Below are positions 2,116 through 33,542 of a stretch of 33,542 nt of DNA, piece after piece. The notes beneath the pieces were generated by a model. It was not told where the DNA came from and did no database searches. It was given only the letters and a program-made list of their open reading frames with translations. The position numbers were made by a program, and so were the translations under genes. Each line of letters begins with the position of its first letter. Within the stretch, counting starts at the first letter, position 1. Source of the stretch: a virus; IMG/VR virus record IMGVR_UViG_3300042876_001174, positions 1-33,542 of that record, one strand, 5' to 3'.

Positions 2116-5100
2116 TTATGCGTCCTGTACCGCGTTCAGGCTCGCGCTGCCCGAGCCGATGACGTTGGTGCCGGCGGAGTCGGTCGCAAAGAGGAAGTTG
2201 ACCGTGGCGCTTTTGATGCCGATGGAGCCTGGCGCGTAGGTCAGGGACCACTGCCGCACCACGCTGAGCTGCTGCCAAGTGCCGAAAGTGCCCGTGACAT
2301 CAGCTGCGTTCGAACCCGAGGCGCTTGCGCGTACCCAGTAGCCGGATCCGACGCCCGTCGTATTGGGGGCGTACCAGTCGGCCGTCTGCACGGCGTCGTT
2401 TACCAAGTAGGTAACCCGCCCGTCGCTTTCGAGCGAGACCCGGGCGGTAGCGGTCTGCACGCCGTCGATCTCTATGTCGTGGCTGAAGATGCGGAAGCTT
2501 TCGATGAAGTTGGTGGTCCCAGCGGCTGACTTGCTCTTGCTGACGCTGAAACGCTTGGTCTGGGTGGGGTAGCCGCTCTTGGTCGCCGTGATGTCGATGT
2601 ACCCGGAGTCGACCGCCGTGGTCATGCCGGACACCGTCAAGAGGTTCTCGTCGGCACCACTGCCCAGCGTGGCCGTTATCCCCGCGCTGGCTGCCTTGGT
2701 GTAGGTCCAGTTGATGCTGTCGTCCGCCAGGCCGATGTAGACCCGCATCCGGCTCGTGGCGCCGGCGTAGCTCGTGACTGCGCCGGTGCTGTCGGCGGGG
2801 AGCGTGACGGCCTGGTTGTCCAGGTCGGACACCACGGAGAAAGCTCCATCGCGCAGGCGAACAACCGTCTCCTGGTCGCTGCGCCCGCCCAGCGTGGCCA
2901 CGACGGTGGCGTAGGCCGCCGCGCCGAACTGCGCCACGGTGAGCGTGCGCGCGTTGCCCGTGCCGCCCAGCGTGACGGTGCCGAGGCTGGTACCGGAGCT
3001 GTCATACCGGGTACAGACGAACGACGCAGTGCCGGAGAGGTTCTCGAGCACCGCCGTGAACGTGATGGTCTGGCTGGTGGGCGACGCGGCGTTGTCGCCG
3101 TCGAACGTGAAGGTCTGCGCTGTCACCTTGAGGGTGAGCAGCGGGGCATCAGCACCGTCGGCTCCAGCCCCGCCATCGGCGCCGGACTTGCTCTTGCTGA
3201 GTGCCACCCGCTTGACCTGCGTGGCGTATCCGCTGCGCGTGGCGGTGATGTCCACATAGCTGGCGTCGTTCGCATCGGCCAGCGCCGTGATCGTGAGAAC
3301 GTTACTGGCCAGCGTGGATGTCACGCCCGTGCCGTTCGTGCGCGTGAAGGTCCAGTTGGCCGTGTCGTCGGTAGTGCCCTTGAACACCGACATGCTGGAC
3401 ACCGCACCCGAATAGCTGGTGACGTGGCCCGCCGAGTTGGCGGGCAGCACGACGGCCTCGTTGCTCAGCAGCGAGACGATGGCATCGTTGCCCTCGCGGA
3501 TCTTGGCCACGGTGATCGTGTCGGTGAGGCCGTCCTGCGTCACCTGGATGGTGGCGGTGTCGGTGCTCATGCCCGAGTAGGCGAGCGAGCGCGAGCTGCC
3601 CGAGCCGGTCAGCGTGGCGGCGCCGGCGGTGACCGAGAATGTCGGCGAGCCAGTGAGGTTTTGGCCGTTGGCCGTGAAGGTGATCGACGACGGCGACGCG
3701 GTGCCAGCCTTGTTGACCTGGTACACCTGCGAGGTGGCCGTGATCTGCAGCAGCTTGGCATCGTTGCCCTTGGCCGCTTGCGGATAGAACGTCAGGTTGC
3801 TGACGCTGCCAAGCTCGTTGAAGCTGCTGTCCAGGTAGAGAAGCAGGCCCGCGCCAACGCCGGCGAGAGTACGTACCGCGCCACCGTTCTTGTAGTAGAC
3901 GACGCTATCACCGTTATAGATGATGGCAAACACGTCACCAGCCACGTAGCTCCCCACGCTTCCTCGATCGTTGTTGCTTTCGTAGACACGAAGATCGCCT
4001 GTACTGGTCAGGTAAAGCGCGTAATCCAGCGTGCTGAATCCGCTATCGGTAGCCGGATCGCTGTTGAGCGCGATCATGATTTTCTTGTCCGCCTGGTCAG
4101 CAACAAACGCCACGCCCGCACCGCCCGGGTAGGCCTGGTCACTGCGCACGGAGCCGTTCCACGTGCCGCTGCCGCTGATCTTGGTGGCCACGCCGCCGGC
4201 CCATGTCATATTGGCCGTGGCCGTCGCAGTGAAGGCACTTGCGCCATCAGCGCCGGCGCGGGCCTTGCCGATGCTCACGCGCTGGGTCTGCGTGGGGTAG
4301 CCGGTGCGCGTGGCCGTCACGTCGACATAAGCAGCGTCGACCGTGTTGGTCAGCGAGGTGATGGTCAGCGTGGTGCCACTGAGCGTGCTGCCCACTCCGC
4401 TCGAATTGGTGCGGCTGAGCGTCCAGCTGGCCACCTCGTTGACGCCGTTTCGCATCAGCGCAATGGTGCTGGCCGCGCCGGCAAAGCTGGTGACGTTGCC
4501 CGAGGTGTCGGCCGGCAGCACGATGGCGCGCGTGCCGAGCACCAGGTCGATTCCATCGAGCTGCGTGGCAGTGTTCACGTCGACTGTGTCTTGCACCCAC
4601 TCGCTGTAGGCAGGGATGCCGTTGCGGGCCCGCGCCTGGATCACGTAGCGCTTCTTGTCGACGGCGCCCAGCGTGATCGTTGCCGAGGTGTCGGCGCCGG
4701 CCACGCTCACCGGGCCCGACCAAGCCGCTTCGTCGATCGCGCGCCAGCGGATGTCGATGTGGCCGCCCTGCAGCACGTACTCCTGGCTGTGGGCCGTCCA
4801 GGCGCAGTCGACGCGCACCAGCACCGAGCCGTCGGGCAGACGCGTCGGTGCGCCGACGGACGCTGCGAAGCCCGCCACCTCGGCCACGTTCCACAAGTAG
4901 CTGAGGTCGGGCGGCACCGGCTGATCCACCGGCGTGAAGCGGTCAGGGTCGAGCGCCCAATCGGTCGAGCGGGTCTGCTGCAGGGTCAGCGGGTAGCGGC
5001 CGTTGAAGCGGTTGCCGCGCTTGACTACCTCCCAGGTGTAGGCGTCGAACACCTCATAGCCGTCAAGGTTCAGCGCCAGCGCATCGCCGAGGGCGATGTC

Positions 5101-7101
5101 TGCGCCGACGCCGGTCACCGTCAGCTCGCAGGTGGTGCGGGGCCGGCGTCGCTCTAGCTCGAGGCCCATGAGGTACTGCGCCTGGCGCGCGTCGGTGGTG
5201 GCGGCCAGGTCGAGCTCATCGTTCTCTTCGCCGCCGTCGAGGCCGATGTAGTAGTCATTCGCCACCGGGGTGACGCCCGTCTCCACGTAGCCGCGCGCCG
5301 CGTCCACGATGCGGCCGTTCATCACGTTGGGCGAGGTGTCGAAGGCGCTGGAATTCGGGTTGAACCGAATCGGCGAATCCTTGTCGATGTCCGCGTCGGT
5401 GAGCGTCAGCGTGGGTGCTCGGTGGGCGCCCGCGAAGATGCGGTATTTGCCGGCCGTGAAGGCGCGGTAGCCGGCCATGCCACCCAGGATCAGCGCCAGG
5501 TTGTCCAGCGGCGCAGCGTCGGTGCTGATGACGGCGTGGCACTCGTAGCGCTTCACGTCCTCATAGCCCGTTCCGTCGATCTTCTTGACGCTGATGGTCT
5601 CGTCGCAGATGTTGGCGGCGGTGATGACCGACGACCAGTCGAGCCAGTCGAAGGGAACGCCGCAGCCACCATCGCGCCGGGGCAGCGTCATCCACCAGGC
5701 CGCCAGGATGGCGTTGTTGCTCGTCCACCGGACCGGGTCCGTGCTGCGCCAGAGCTGGGGCAGACCAATGCGCACGGTGACATCGATGGCTGCACCGCTG
5801 GCGAAATTGAACCGCAGCATCAGGCCCATCTTGGCGGCCGAGGCACCGGCTGATGCGTCCGTGACCTGCACTGCTGCGTCACGCAGCGGGTAGCCTGTGA
5901 CTGTCGTCGTGAGAACCGTGCTGGCTTCGGTAGTGCCCGTCCCGCCGCTGTCGTAGCTCACAAGCGCCAGGTTTGCGCTGGTGAACTGGGCAACGCTGCC
6001 AGCGACGAACCGCACATGCGCCCGGCCATTCCAAGCTTGGCCGCTGGCCGCCGCCGGGCAGGCTGACGACTGCGGAAGCTTCACCGCAGCTTGGCCGCTG
6101 GCGCTTGTGGTCCCGTAGATGCGCAGATCGAAGTACGGCACGCCGTCTTCGCTGCCGCCGCCAACGATTTCGCGCGCCAGGCCGCTCGTGATTCCGGAGG
6201 CCGTGACATTCGTCGGCATCGTGCCGGGCGCGCCAGCAATAGAACCGGTCAGCGCATAGACAGGGTCGAGGTTGTAACGAGGGTCGTGCGCGATGACGCC
6301 GTCGATCAGTACGTTTTCGCTCGGCTTGCCTTGAGCGAAGATGTTCTCGTCCCAGTCACACAACGAGCGGAAGTAGGCGATGCCCTGCAGGCGGTGGTCG
6401 CTGGTCCACTTCGGCGTGACCAGGCCCGGCCAGGTCGTGGCGGCCTGCTGCCGGCCGCCCAGCACCCATTGCACCTGGTACGGCACCTCAGCTGTGACCC
6501 ACCAGTATCCACCACTGATGTAGCCCGTGACAGGCGCAGTTAGCCAAACGGTCGTTCCTGTGACGTGATCAACAACCAAGTCGACATACGCCTCACCAGA
6601 CTGGACAGATACCGCCACGTCTGCCGCTGAACGCGGAGGATGCTCAACGGTGAAGTGGTCCTCCCCGTTCAACGATGCAGAAATGGCTCGATAAAAGGCC
6701 TTGCGGTTGATGGACGAATACTGGCCAACAGTTGGCGCGCCGCTGGAGAAATCAGCCGCGTCGACATACGTGTCGCCCAACCACATGCCGGAGACACCCT
6801 TGATGGGCCCATCGCACACCAGCACGATCTCATCGAGTTTTTCCTTTTGCGTGCCGATGGTGTCCATGTAAGCCAGCGTGCCGCCCACGCGGGCACGGCC
6901 GAGCACGAAGCGGCGCGCACTGAGCGCCCCGCGCACCACTACGTTGCGATCTTGCAGGGCGGCGTTGTAGGCCTTGAGCGCACGCCTGCGTGCGTCGACT
7001 TCGGCCTCGTACCGGTTGATCTGGCCGCCGATGTACGAAAACACCGGGTTTCCAGTGACCGCCCCGAGGACCTGCACCAATGGGCCAACGACCTTGCCCA
7101 T
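2116..7101 (-). CDS. J: Tail-tip / host-specificity protein (J-like) with Ig-like repeats
   Basis: Very large (1661 residues) central tail-tip protein, expected to close the tail tube and carry receptor-binding parts. The first ~700 residues are the baseplate-hub-like part, including the early conserved segment L-D-E-I-V-L-V-C-D-G-P-I-K-G-V. A fibronectin-III-like region is near 720-845. The distal part has three related Ig-like units starting near residues 850, 1205 and 1420, each with V-L-P-A-D/N-S-x-G-x-V-T-S and a closing T-x-S-G-Y-x-T-Q-x-K-R motif. A separate concanavalin/SPRY-like domain (about 955-1107, with V-V-Y-Y-K-N-G) lies between units 1 and 2. A short G-A-D-G stretch is near 1300. 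It is the last tail gene, as in lambda. The distal repeats are the likely region of host-range variation. Confidence 0.93.
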   Translation of the reverse strand: MGKVVGPLVQVLGAVTGNPVFSYIGGQINRYEAEVDARRRALKAYNAALQDRNVVVRGALSARRFVLGRARVGGTLAYMDTIGTQKEKLDEIVLVCDGPIKGVSGMWLGDTYVDAADFSSGAPTVGQYSSINRKAFYRAISASLNGEDHFTVEHPPRSAADVAVSVQSGEAYVDLVVDHVTGTTVWLTAPVTGYISGGYWWVTAEVPYQVQWVLGGRQQAATTWPGLVTPKWTSDHRLQGIAYFRSLCDWDENIFAQGKPSENVLIDGVIAHDPRYNLDPVYALTGSIAGAPGTMPTNVTASGITSGLAREIVGGGSEDGVPYFDLRIYGTTSASGQAAVKLPQSSACPAAASGQAWNGRAHVRFVAGSVAQFTSANLALVSYDSGGTGTTEASTVLTTTVTGYPLRDAAVQVTDASAGASAAKMGLMLRFNFASGAAIDVTVRIGLPQLWRSTDPVRWTSNNAILAAWWMTLPRRDGGCGVPFDWLDWSSVITAANICDETISVKKIDGTGYEDVKRYECHAVISTDAAPLDNLALILGGMAGYRAFTAGKYRIFAGAHRAPTLTLTDADIDKDSPIRFNPNSSAFDTSPNVMNGRIVDAARGYVETGVTPVANDYYIGLDGGEENDELDLAATTDARQAQYLMGLELERRRPRTTCELTVTGVGADIALGDALALNLDGYEVFDAYTWEVVKRGNRFNGRYPLTLQQTRSTDWALDPDRFTPVDQPVPPDLSYLWNVAEVAGFAASVGAPTRLPDGSVLVRVDCAWTAHSQEYVLQGGHIDIRWRAIDEAAWSGPVSVAGADTSATITLGAVDKKRYVIQARARNGIPAYSEWVQDTVDVNTATQLDGIDLVLGTRAIVLPADTSGNVTSFAGAASTIALMRNGVNEVASWTLSRTNSSGVGSTLSGTTLTITSLTNTVDAAYVDVTATRTGYPTQTQRVSIGKARAGADGASAFTATATANMTWAGGVATKISGSGTWNGSVRSDQAYPGGAGVAFVADQADKKIMIALNSDPATDSGFSTLDYALYLTSTGDLRVYESNNDRGSVGSYVAGDVFAIIYNGDSVVYYKNGGAVRTLAGVGAGLLLYLDSSFNELGSVSNLTFYPQAAKGNDAKLLQITATSQVYQVNKAGTASPSSITFTANGQNLTGSPTFSVTAGAATLTGSGSSRSLAYSGMSTDTATIQVTQDGLTDTITVAKIREGNDAIVSLLSNEAVVLPANSAGHVTSYSGAVSSMSVFKGTTDDTANWTFTRTNGTGVTSTLASNVLTITALADANDASYVDITATRSGYATQVKRVALSKSKSGADGGAGADGADAPLLTLKVTAQTFTFDGDNAASPTSQTITFTAVLENLSGTASFVCTRYDSSGTSLGTVTLGGTGNARTLTVAQFGAAAYATVVATLGGRSDQETVVRLRDGAFSVVSDLDNQAVTLPADSTGAVTSYAGATSRMRVYIGLADDSINWTYTKAASAGITATLGSGADENLLTVSGMTTAVDSGYIDITATKSGYPTQTKRFSVSKSKSAAGTTNFIESFRIFSHDIEIDGVQTATARVSLESDGRVTYLVNDAVQTADWYAPNTTGVGSGYWVRASASGSNAADVTGTFGTWQQLSVVRQWSLTYAPGSIGIKSATVNFLFATDSAGTNVIGSGSASLNAVQDA
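2520..4560 (-). repeat. Three in-frame repeats coding for Ig-like units in the J-like protein
   Basis: Three related segments of about 300 bp (approximately 2520-2860, 3190-3500 and 4260-4560) encode the Ig-like units of the tail-tip protein. They share nucleotide as well as protein similarity, for example around the codons for V-L-P-A-D/N and S-G-Y-x-T-Q. The segment between copies 3190-3500 and 4260-4560 carries the unrelated lectin-like domain. Boundaries are approximate because they were judged by eye. Confidence 0.75.
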
Positions 7102-30812: not shown

Positions 30813-31133
30813 GTGCCCCACGTCATCCGAGCCGAGCACCTCAAGCTCGTCCTCGTCGCGCGCCGGATAGCGCGCCACAGCCCCACCGTCACCGATCGCT
30901 GGGCCGCCATGAGCTCGGGCCAGTGGTCCGTGCGCAGCTGCCGACCAGGCCGGGCGACTGGCGACTGCCAGCAGTACCCGCTGCAGCCGCTCATGCAGCC
31001 CATGTCACGCGGCGGAATTGCCCGTGTCATCGAGCGCACCCGCGCCTTCCACGGCCTGGCCGAGGTCAACCGCACTTGGCGCACCGGCCTGCGCGCCCTC
31101 AAGGCCGAAATCGCCGCAGGGGTGCTGCGATGA
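30813..31133 (+). CDS. First protein of the rightward operon, unknown
   Basis: A 106-residue basic protein. It starts with GTG at 30813 behind GGGAG. It reads I-R-A-E-H-L-K-L-V-L-V-A-R-R-I-A-R-H near the start and ends with helices R-G-G-I-A-R-V-I-E-R-T-R-A-F-H-G-L and W-R-T-G-L-R-A-L-K-A-E-I. No family is recognised; the charge suggests a nucleic acid or regulator contact. Being first after the PL-like promoter is the place of early regulators such as N in lambda, but no N-like arginine-rich motif stands out. It overlaps the next gene (ATGA). Confidence 0.6.
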   Translation: MPHVIRAEHLKLVLVARRIARHSPTVTDRWAAMSSGQWSVRSCRPGRATGDCQQYPLQPLMQPMSRGGIARVIERTRAFHGLAEVNRTWRTGLRALKAEIAAGVLR

Positions 31134-31498
31134 GCGCCGCCCAATGCCCCATCGCCCTGAAGAAGGGCGAGCGCTACGCCGGCGCCATCGTCAACGCAGA
31201 CGGCTCCATCGCGTACCACCTTGTGCTGCTCGCCAAGAGGCCGTCCAAACGTCTGGACTGGGCCGCCGCGAAGGCCTGGGCCGCCAAAGCCGGCGGCGAG
31301 CTGCCCACGCGCCGCGAACAGAGCCTGCTGGCCGCGAACGCGAAGGACGCGTTTGAGGCCAGCTGGTACTGGTCAAGCGAGGCTTACGAGGAAGACGGCG
31401 CCTACGCCTGGCTTCAGGGCTTCGGCAACGGCCTCCAGAGCAACGGCGACACGAGCTACGAGGCCCGTGTGCGTGCCGTCCGCCGAATCACTCCTTGA
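31130..31498 (+). CDS. DUF1566/C-type-lectin-like protein, candidate DGR target A
   Basis: A 122-residue protein. It has D-W-A-A-A-K-A-W-A (43-51), L-P-T-R-R-E-Q-S-L-L (58-67), W-Y-W-S-S-E (79-84), G-A-Y-A-W-L-Q-G-F-G-N-G-L-Q-S (90-104) and a closing Y-E-A-R-V-R-A-V-R-R (110-119). The order L-P-T-R...W-Y-W-S...R-V-R-A-V-R is that of DUF1566 and of lectin-fold targets of diversity-generating retroelements. The codons from about residue 95 to 107 are the variable part (see repeat at 31394). It overlaps the preceding gene (ATGA) and is short, without a signal peptide or tail-fibre part, so its display site is unclear. Confidence 0.75.
   Translation: MSAAQCPIALKKGERYAGAIVNADGSIAYHLVLLAKRPSKRLDWAAAKAWAAKAGGELPTRREQSLLAANAKDAFEASWYWSSEAYEEDGAYAWLQGFGNGLQSNGDTSYEARVRAVRRITP
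31394..31484 (+). repeat. Candidate variable repeat A
   Basis: The last part of the first DUF1566-like gene. It matches 33360-33450 over 91 bp at 80 positions. The left arm GACGGCGCCTACGCCTGG and the right arm starting ACGAGCTACGAGGCC are identical. All 11 differences fall in the 13 codons between, at first or second codon positions only. Each is explained by A-to-N change from an AAY- or GAC-type template codon. Confidence 0.8.
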
Positions 31499-31523
31499 AT
31501 CCTTTGATCCTTCAGGAGGGCCC

Positions 31524-31733
31524 ATGTTCATCGCCATGCCTCACCAGGCAACACCCTGCGCGCCGCGCCGCGTATTCAGCGTCGAGATCGAGCGCCCCGA
31601 CGGCTCACACGACGTGATGACCGTCGAGGGCGGCCTGGCCTTCGATCACGCCATCGACGCCATGGAGCGCGCCGGAGCGTGCGCCGTGGTGCGCGTGACC
31701 CAGATCCCCCAGCACGTGGGTGAGCCGTCATGA
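31524..31733 (+). CDS. Small hypothetical protein
   Basis: A 69-residue protein with a strong ribosome-binding site (AGGAGGG at 31514-31520). It reads R-V-F-S-V-E-I-E-R-P-D-G-S-H-D-V-M-T-V-E-G-G, a small beta pair, then the helix F-D-H-A-I-D-A-M-E-R-A-G-A and the strand C-A-V-V-R-V-T-Q-I. The beta-beta-alpha-beta layout resembles small phage early proteins of unknown role. It overlaps the following start (ATGA). No family is recognised. Confidence 0.6.
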   Translation: MFIAMPHQATPCAPRRVFSVEIERPDGSHDVMTVEGGLAFDHAIDAMERAGACAVVRVTQIPQHVGEPS

Positions 31734-32071
31734 CGGACGAACGCCTGCTGTCCGGCCATGTGCCCTTCTCCCTGGCCAATCTGCCGCAGTGCACCGGCCT
31801 CAGCTGCGGCCAGGGCGACCACCCCTGCACCGACAACTGCCCGAACGTCCCGCAGCGGGCCGCGCCGCCGGCGTGCGACATGAGCCCCAACGCCGGCACC
31901 TTCGACCCGACCATGTTGGCCGCGCCGGACGACTGGGAGCCCGCCACCTACGAGATCGGGTACGTGGACGGCTGGCGCGTCGGCGCGGGCCAGGCGCTGC
32001 TCATGGGCGTGGCGCTCGGCGCGGCGCTGGTGGGCGTGGCCATCCAGCTCGGCCTGGTGGTGGGGTTCTGA
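31730..32071 (+). CDS. Small cysteine-rich membrane protein
   Basis: A 113-residue protein. The N-terminal half has Cys at Q-C-T-G-L-S-C-G-Q-G-D-H-P-C-T-D-N-C-P (about 20-38) and A-C-D-M near 48, a possible metal-binding cluster. The C-terminal half has G-Y-V-D-G-W-R-V-G-A-G-Q, then a hydrophobic segment (A-L-L-M-G-V-A-L-G-A-A-L-V-G-V-A-I, about 88-110), one membrane helix. Translation is coupled to the preceding gene. Function unknown; a membrane-anchored early protein is the most that can be said. Confidence 0.6.
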   Translation: MTDERLLSGHVPFSLANLPQCTGLSCGQGDHPCTDNCPNVPQRAAPPACDMSPNAGTFDPTMLAAPDDWEPATYEIGYVDGWRVGAGQALLMGVALGAALVGVAIQLGLVVGF

Positions 32072-32073
32072 CC

Positions 32074-32319
32074 ATGCGCGCCCCCGCACATTGGGACGAA
32101 TACCCCGTCCGCGGCTGCGCCGTGTGCCAGTACGGGCGCGACGCCACCGGCGCGGCTACACGTCCCGGCGGCCGCGATGCTGAGACCTGCATTTGCCCCA
32201 GCGTCACCGGCCGCGAGATCGCCCAGGGCAAGCCGCTCACCGGCGTGCCCGCCCGCCTGGCGCGCGCAAACTTCGGCGCATGCGGCCCCGAGGCCCACCA
32301 CCTCACCTTCCCCGCGTGA
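32074..32319 (+). CDS. Small cysteine-containing phage protein
   Basis: An 81-residue protein. Cysteines lie at G-C-A-V-C-Q-Y (14-20) and C-I-C-P (39-42), and near the end at A-C-G-P-E-A-H-H-L (70-78). The C-x2-C, C-x-C and C...H-H pattern suggests one bound zinc. ATG at 32074 is 2 bases after the previous stop. It resembles small putative zinc-binding proteins seen in early operons of Burkholderiales phages; that comparison is from memory. Role unknown. Confidence 0.6.
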   Translation: MRAPAHWDEYPVRGCAVCQYGRDATGAATRPGGRDAETCICPSVTGREIAQGKPLTGVPARLARANFGACGPEAHHLTFPA

Positions 32320-32326
32320 GGCTACC

Positions 32327-32677
32327 ATGCCGCACATCGAGCCCACCCCAGGCCAGCTACAGGCTGCGTTCGCCCACGCGCGCAAGCCCCACTGGCCCGA
32401 TCGGCTCGACGATGCGCTGGCCCACCCGCTCTACGGGCGCCTCGTGCGAATGAACGCGATGGTGCTCGCCGAGGGGCGCGACCCCTTCGCCGCCCAGCGC
32501 ATCAACCACCGCCCCGTGGTCATCGCCCCGGAGCCGCCCCACCCAGCCGAGCCGCCAGCCCCGCGCATCGAGCGGCCACGCCGCCCCGCCAAGCCCCGGC
32601 GCGCCGCGCCGACCAAAGCTTTACCCCAGCTGCCACTGATCGACCGCAAGCGTGCGGCCGGCGGTGACGACAACTAA
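32327..32677 (+). CDS. Proline-rich hypothetical protein
   Basis: A 116-residue protein. The N-terminal half is helical (P-T-P-G-Q-L-Q-A-A-F-A-H-A-R-K, then R-L-D-D-A-L-A-H-P-L-Y-G-R-L-V). The C-terminal half is rich in proline, arginine and alanine (E-P-P-H-P-A-E-P-P-A-P-R, then R-P-R-R-P-A-K-P-R-R), probably disordered and basic, so binding of nucleic acid or acidic partners is possible. No family is recognised. It starts 8 bases after the previous stop with a weak GAGG. Confidence 0.6.
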   Translation: MPHIEPTPGQLQAAFAHARKPHWPDRLDDALAHPLYGRLVRMNAMVLAEGRDPFAAQRINHRPVVIAPEPPHPAEPPAPRIERPRRPAKPRRAAPTKALPQLPLIDRKRAAGGDDN

Positions 32678-32691
32678 CCCCAGGAGTCAGC

Positions 32692-33018
32692 ATGCCGATC
32701 CCACTCGACGCCAACCAGGCGCCGCTCCCCTCTGCGCCCTTCTACCTGCCGACCGACCCCGCGGCCGAAACCCAGATGGTCCACCTGGCCTTCGAGATCG
32801 CCAACCGCGCGGTCGTCGAAGACATCGAGAACTACGCCGTCAAAGAAGTCACCGACGGCCGCATCTACTGGGACACGCGCCCCATGACGGACCCGCGCGA
32901 GCACGCGCCCCAGTCCATCGACATGGCCACCCAGGCCATCCGCTACGCGCTCACCGCCGGCCTCGCCGCCGTGCACCCGCAGCGCCCCTACCTCATCACC
33001 CTCGTCGGCCGCGGTTAA
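32692..33018 (+). CDS. Hypothetical protein
   Basis: A 108-residue protein with a good ribosome-binding site (AGGAG at 32682-32686). It reads F-Y-L-P-T-D-P-A-A-E-T-Q-M-V-H-L-A-F-E-I-A-N-R-A-V, then E-N-Y-A-V-K-E-V-T-D-G-R-I-Y-W-D-T-R-P-M, then the helix A-T-Q-A-I-R-Y-A-L-T-A-G-L. Ordered composition suggests a folded globular protein. No known motif is recognised. It lies between the proline-rich gene and the second DUF1566-like gene. Confidence 0.6.
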   Translation: MPIPLDANQAPLPSAPFYLPTDPAAETQMVHLAFEIANRAVVEDIENYAVKEVTDGRIYWDTRPMTDPREHAPQSIDMATQAIRYALTAGLAAVHPQRPYLITLVGRG

Positions 33019-33062
33019 GCCGGCCAACCCCACCGCAGCCCTGCTGCATCAACGGAGGCTCC

Positions 33063-33542
33063 ATGCCTGAAACCACCGCAGCGCCGATCGCGCTTGACAC
33101 CCTGCCCCACATCGGCGAGCCGCTGCTCAGCGGCACCTACGCCGGCGTCATCTGCACCCCTTTCGGCGAGCGCAGCGCTGTCATCCTGCTCGCCGACAAG
33201 CCCGACCGCGACCTGAACTGGGCCGCCGCAAAAGCCTGGGCCGAAAGCCTCGGCGATGGCGCCCAACTCCCCAACCGCCAAGCCGGCGTGCTGCTGTTCA
33301 GCACGCTGCGCGACCGCTTCGACAAGTGCTGGCACTGGCTGGCCGACGCTCTCGAAGACGACGGCGCCTACGCCTGGAATCAGACCTTCAGCAGCGGCGG
33401 CCAGAGCCACGACGTCACGAGCTACGAGGCCCGTGTGCGTGCCGTCCGCCTGATTCCCCTCAGCGCTTGGTCCTTCAATCCCTTTTCTTCGGGAGATTTT
33501 ATGTCGACCACTGAACAAGCGGCCGTTCGCATTGGCGAGCTG
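33063..33542 (+). CDS. DUF1566/C-type-lectin-like protein, candidate DGR target B (runs off the window)
   Basis: Open from ATG 33063 (GGAGG at 33054-33058) to the window end, at least 160 residues. It is a paralogue of the 31130 product: N-W-A-A-A-K-A-W-A (about 61-69), L-P-N-R-Q-A (about 77-82), W-H-W-L-A-D (93-98), G-A-Y-A-W-N-Q-T-F-S-S-G-G-Q-S (about 102-116), and the identical ending T-S-Y-E-A-R-V-R-A-V-R. The frame does not stop after this as protein A does. It continues through S-F-N-P-F-S-S-G-D-F into M-S-T-T-E-Q at 33501, where a ribosome-binding site suggests the start of another gene in the same frame. It is either a longer fusion or an overlap whose stop lies outside the window. 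Confidence 0.72.
   Translation, partial: MPETTAAPIALDTLPHIGEPLLSGTYAGVICTPFGERSAVILLADKPDRDLNWAAAKAWAESLGDGAQLPNRQAGVLLFSTLRDRFDKCWHWLADALEDDGAYAWNQTFSSGGQSHDVTSYEARVRAVRLIPLSAWSFNPFSSGDFMSTTEQAAVRIGEL
33360..33450 (+). repeat. Candidate variable repeat B
   Basis: The matching 91 bp in the second DUF1566-like gene. Compared with 31394-31484 the 13 variable codons give N-Q-T-F-S-S-G-G-Q-S-H-D-V here against L-Q-G-F-G-N-G-L-Q-S-N-G-D there; eight residues differ. Third codon positions are all identical. It is followed by T/C-rich TCCTTCAATCC, resembling TTTGATCCTTC after repeat A. Confidence 0.8.
33491..33503 (+). promoter_or_regulatory. Ribosome-binding site and possible gene start inside the open frame
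   Basis: GGGAG at 33491-33495 lies 5 bases before ATG 33501, which begins M-S-T-T-E-Q-A-A-V-R-I-G-E-L up to the window end. The ATG is in frame with the DUF1566-like gene, so it may mark a separate downstream gene (for example a DGR accessory gene) or an internal restart. Confidence 0.4.

Follow-up and report, generated by a model that had tools for sequence, protein, structure and literature searches.

The analyzed DNA (hereafter, the window) is a complete IMG/VR record of exactly 33,542 bp (IMGVR_UViG_3300042876_001174). Close to its right end we identified two genes encoding C-type-lectin-like proteins and the first 42 bp of another target gene, all placed on the strand opposite to that of the structural genes. 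The 3' parts of the two longer genes contain a pair of similar 91-bp segments (variable repeats, VR1 and VR2), each of which is followed by a T-rich repeat (Table 1).

Table 1. Features identified at the right end of the window.
Feature	Coordinates	Strand	Basis or score
Target gene 1, encoding 122 aa with one C-type-lectin-like domain (Lcl_C)	31130..31498	+	profile match, predicted structure
Variable repeat VR1	31394..31484	+	12 mismatches to the TR (L003:749-839), all at A
Tandem 8-nt T-rich repeat after VR1 (ATCACTCC TTGAATCC TTTGATCC TT), candidate target-site mark	31487..31512	+	16.0 and 10.9 nats
Target gene 2, C-type-lectin-like, no stop before the record end	33063..33542	+	translation, ORF list; likewise in L002
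Variable repeat VR2	33360..33450	+	10 mismatches to the L003 TR, all at A
T-rich repeat after VR2 (CTTGGTCCTTCAATCCCT), candidate target-site mark	33466..33483	+	9.8 nats
First 42 bp of target gene 3 (MSTTEQAAVRIGEL...), truncated at the record end	33501..33542	+	sequence

Direct alignment of VR1 and VR2 revealed 11 mismatches, which affect 8 of the codons within a 13-codon stretch and fall exclusively at first or second codon positions. The variable stretch is bordered by arms of 18 and 35 nt, identical in both copies, and at 8 of the 11 mismatches one of the copies has A. The first-pass annotation had described this 91-bp pair, its identical arms and the A content of the differences; all coordinates, lengths and counts proved exact, and our recount of the A-containing positions gave the same result. 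It had also stated that third positions do differ elsewhere in the two genes, which was borne out by the numbers of differences at codon positions 1/2/3: 38/37/43 outside the VR versus 5/6/0 inside. A cleaner control than this paralogue pair is provided by the orthologues in L002, a contig of metagenome 3300042876. In this comparison, the two target genes differed at 12/6/24 and 11/8/20 positions outside the VR, and at 4/5/2 and 3/6/0 positions inside. The third-position bias outside the VR indicates that the targets are under purifying selection, i.e. that they are selected proteins.

Scanning for the shared 3' arm led to L003, a contig of 7.9 kb from the same metagenome, in which the following elements are arranged on a single strand: the terminal part of a third target gene, including its own repeat (VR3), Avd, the template (TR, positions 749–839), a reverse transcriptase (RT), a gene for an HTH protein, and an integrase. 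The template is thus placed between Avd and RT, outside all target genes; in this lineage, 13–64 nt separate the TR from the RT core. The Avd gene (L003:207–566) matched bAvd of Pfam (1.5e-11, above the cut-off), and the RT matched RVT_1 (2.5e-13); the RTs of related loci contain the catalytic motif YVDD. The variable part of the TR, AATCAGAACTTCAACAACGGCAACCAGAACAACAACGACACG, is A-rich and contains AAT CAG AAC TTC AAC AAC, the template predicted by the first-pass annotation. Compared with this TR, VR1 carries 12 and VR2 10 substitutions, all 22 of which are located at template A (26 A among 91 positions; chance probability of ~1e-12). An A-to-G change of the first TR base is common to all five VRs compared and may represent boundary divergence; the conservative counts, omitting this position, are 11 and 9. 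A search of the window with the L003 template revealed no match besides VR1 and VR2. Beyond the integrase of L003 there is a tRNA gene on the opposite strand (5151–5239) and then bacterial DNA, beginning with a SNF2-type gene; judging from this arrangement, the tRNA/integrase junction is likely to be a prophage attachment site.

The cassette is also present in (i) the IMG/VR contigs L001, L005 and L006, (ii) the isolated or sequenced phages Magia, QDWS, Cruim01, Haboob, SC_8_H2H8_2017 and LPPA56, and (iii) bacterial genome assemblies (56 loci, almost all from Betaproteobacteria and some from Pseudomonas). The last group was obtained by scanning with an RT alignment (57 matches, of which one, weak and unrelated, was left out); a scan of bacterial genome assemblies with a single RT sequence gave no match. 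VRs were detected in 62 of the 66 loci scanned: two in 44 loci, three in 17, and one in a single locus on a cut contig. Altogether, the 140 VRs of these 62 loci carry 1598 changes at template A and 16 elsewhere. Since the VR scan favours A by design, it was rerun with C, G or T free, which yielded 1, 0 and 0 pairs, respectively. Among pairs picked only by an exact 3' arm, 51% of A were changed, compared with 3% of C, 8% of G and 7% of T. Differences falling equally on third positions and on non-A template bases, named in the first-pass annotation as evidence against its reading, were not seen in the 62 loci. Four loci with this RT (L031, L046, L050 and L053) contained no VRs according to the scan, and L046 also had no detectable Avd; these are possibly cut contigs, or loci whose targets are rearranged or remote. 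In L001, a C4 antisense RNA (RF01695; 8121–8204) is located upstream of the two targets.

A diversity-generating retroelement (DGR) of this kind is already known. Burkholderia phage Magia (MT701587), published in 2021, was described as carrying a potential DGR, with targets in 'relatively short reading frames' (PMC7883833). As here, its Avd, RT-15 RNA (see below), TR and RT are arranged in this order with an integrase downstream, its targets are short lectin-fold proteins, and all VR changes are at A. A difference is that Magia has a third target 7 kb away, beside the repressor. Only genes 47 and 57 were named as targets in the published analysis (PMC7883833); we found that gene 46 (L007 8250–8340) also carries a VR, whose 11 changes are without exception at template A.

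The product of target gene 1 matched the Lcl_C family (E 3e-6, under the curated cut-off), which we take to be the former DUF1566. Its AlphaFold model (pLDDT 82, pTM 0.78) has the predicted fold of a C-type lectin, with a drop in pLDDT to 62–65 at residues 81–110, which include the variable loop. The nearest solved folds are the C-terminal domains of Bd2740 of Bdellovibrio (8oks; Z 11.4) and Lcl of Legionella pneumophila (8q4e; Z 10.2). In the latter two cases the lectin domain is part of a larger protein, whereas the phage targets consist of the domain alone. Throughout the family, targets are mostly of 110–210 aa (greater lengths result mostly from over-long upstream start choices), with one bare Lcl_C/DUF1566 domain and the VR near the C terminus; in most of them the 60-nt VR core ends 30–60 nt 5' of the stop codon. 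Target gene 2 has TGG at the site of the TGA stop of L001 (window 33466–33542; L002 10398–10474). With no stop before the record end, it continues in frame through the ATG (position 33501) of target gene 3. This read-through, present in both the window and L002 contigs, possibly gives rise to a double-lectin fusion with VR2 in an internal position. The probable counterpart of target gene 3 in L003 (L003:1–177) carries the third VR (L003:73–163).

Phage DGRs are mostly viewed as tail-fibre tropism switches, and the target of the BPP-1 element, the tail protein Mtd, is encoded beside structural genes. In contrast, the targets analyzed here belong to an operon on the integrase side. In Magia, the targets and the cassette occupy one strand together with recT-like, nuclease, ATPase and integrase genes, with one target near the repressor; the surroundings of the target genes in the other annotated relatives are similar. 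This gene order, and the annotation of relatives, suggests that the targets are located in an early operon. The first-pass annotation had proposed such non-tail, early-operon targets and considered the location unusual: the association with recombination genes and the integrase instead of tail genes was upheld, but the location is not unique, as it is shared by Magia. We are inclined to think, with some reserve, that the targets are variable binders acting outside the tail, i.e. non-tail binding proteins.

Alternatively, the same DGR may diversify parts of the virion, such as small adhesive tail tips, and so change the host range as in BPP-1; this concerns the function of the targets and not the identity of the DGR. 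The C-type lectin is the usual receptor-binding fold of DGR targets, which is in agreement with this proposal. Moreover, the viral targets of DGR clades 1, 4 and 6 have been annotated mostly as tail proteins (Roux et al. 2021, PMC8144416). Nevertheless, a role in the virion seems the less likely of the two, given that the target genes of Magia and other phages lie close to recT, nuclease and integrase genes, that most of the proteins are composed of one bare domain (~110–210 aa), and that a search of the window's tail fibre (1661 aa, 2116–7101) revealed no VR. If the targets do act outside the tail, a widespread lineage diversifying lectin-fold proteins of this type raises the question of what else a phage must recognize in many forms.

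The first-pass annotation had expected the DNA past position 33542 to contain an RT, a gene similar to Avd and a template rich in A. These are present in close relatives but not in the window's own record, in which we detected no RT, and no Avd or TR within the 33,542 bp. As the record stops 42 bp into the next target gene, the DGR machinery is placed outside the window. The final 127 bp of the window are identical to the final 127 bp of L002, which looks like two contigs ending at one assembly branch, and the window presumably derives from the same sample. L003 has no overlap with the window and may therefore represent a sister phage.

The absence of an RT from the record is also compatible with the VRs of this phage being relics of a lost or inactive DGR, fixed as they stand. 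In addition, VR1 of L002 has two non-A changes relative to the template, which shows that some copies have not been freshly overwritten. However, this explanation appears very improbable: (i) the record ends where relatives carry the cassette, at a distance of ~1.2 kb or less from the TR, (ii) the co-occurring L002 and L003 differ in VR sequence, with mostly clean arms, and (iii) nearly all comparable loci have kept the RT, Avd, TR and VRs, the exceptions being the four without detectable VRs. Ordinary duplication of a lectin gene, followed by conversion of the 3' ends and positive selection on loop residues, would explain why the target genes are paralogues and why the arms are identical, but its probability is negligible, since it is already refuted by the match to a template lying outside any target gene, from which all 22 differences are at A, and the same pattern, shown by no other base, recurs in 140 VRs of 62 loci.

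The A-only changes, the cassette in relatives and the same pattern in 62 loci identify a true DGR, as the first-pass annotation had claimed from the signature of the paired segments. We conclude that these segments are, almost certainly, variable repeats of a DGR of a temperate siphophage, which diversifies small C-type-lectin targets and whose cassette is located past the record end; how the mutations arise is close to certain. The phage itself, whose host is probably burkholderial, would carry the cassette, presumably in an active form.

The BPP-1 element requires a GC hairpin after the VR (7–10 bp, GRNA loop, 4–34 bp downstream; PMC3240598). A hairpin of this type was absent in 126 of 127 VR flanks, including both of those in the window, in a test that recovered BPP-1 itself as a positive control. 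DNA hairpins after the VRs of the window did not surpass those of shuffled sequences (z −0.07 and −0.34); VR3 of L003, alone among the VRs folded, has a downstream hairpin (z −3.4). In place of the BPP-1 hairpin, a motif search of the VR flanks revealed a tandem 8-nt T-rich unit, TTnAnTCCTTCAnTCnTT, which begins ~3–18 nt past the arm. In each of three splits with training on half of the loci, all of the held-out VR flanks (100%) and none of the TR flanks (0%) exceeded the 99th percentile of random windows (free of VR flanks) for this repeat; the VR flanks used for the motif are partly related by descent. When a model trained on other loci only was applied to the window, the repeats listed in Table 1 (two hits after VR1 and one after VR2) obtained the three best scores in 33.5 kb, followed by an unrelated site with 5.2 nats. 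Because of its position, its VR-only occurrence and the lack of a hairpin, the T-rich repeat is a candidate recipient mark; its conservation at VRs only is observed, and its likely function would be to distinguish recipients.

Each of the 22 RT-carrying loci that were tested contains Rfam RNA RT-15 (RF03018) between Avd and the TR, the RNA ending no more than a few bases away from where the TR begins. The RT frame extends open upstream across the TR in 59 of 62 loci. Mismatch frequencies at codon positions 1/2/3 were 0.158/0.151/0.156 in the RT-15 stretch and 0.147/0.110/0.379 in the RT core. A protein-coding extension of the RT was rejected, as the mismatches in the RT-15 stretch are equal at all codon positions, and this even divergence indicates conservation as RNA and not as protein. 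We observed no synonymous suppression in this lineage that would reveal a hidden RNA element in the RT start, and the Rfam Phage_DGR RNA gave no match at gathering score in the loci searched. In BPP-1, Phage_DGR is placed 3' of the TR (RNA 2750–2882, TR 2887–3020, minus strand), whereas in this lineage RT-15 is placed 5' of it.

The BPP-1 DGR combines a TR/VR pair, A-specific change, Avd plus RT, and a C-terminal VR in a C-type-lectin target, all of which are shared by the system analyzed here. In the proposed mechanism, an A-rich TR beyond the right end of the record would be transcribed jointly with the RT-15 RNA that immediately precedes it. RT and Avd would copy the template RNA, inserting random bases opposite A, and the cDNA would replace the 3' end of each target gene via the invariant 35-bp 3' arm. 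The tandem T-rich repeat after the VR, which the template does not have, probably marks the recipients. As a result, ~9–12 codons would be diversified in two or three small C-type-lectin proteins of an operon directed towards the integrase. Considering the roles that we infer for the T-rich repeat and RT-15, we tentatively suggest, at rather less than even confidence, that RT-15 DGRs form a separate mechanistic branch, defined by a 5' structured RNA, a direct-repeat mark and small lectin-fold binders outside the tail module, used intracellularly. In the literature searched we found no description of RT-15, of non-hairpin DGR marks, or of the combination of both elements with consistently small non-tail targets, and earlier publication is possible. 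How a recipient is told from the template without a hairpin could be approached by mutating the direct repeat that occurs only at VRs or the structured RNA 5' of the TR. The isolated phages Magia, Haboob, LPPA56, Cruim01 and QDWS allow this question, as well as that of recognition, to be tested.

An RNA of a different Rfam family, RT-14, was detected directly 5' of a related RT in Bacillus phage BalMu-1 (L073 7795–7938), which suggests that other RT-numbered RNA families may belong to DGR templates.
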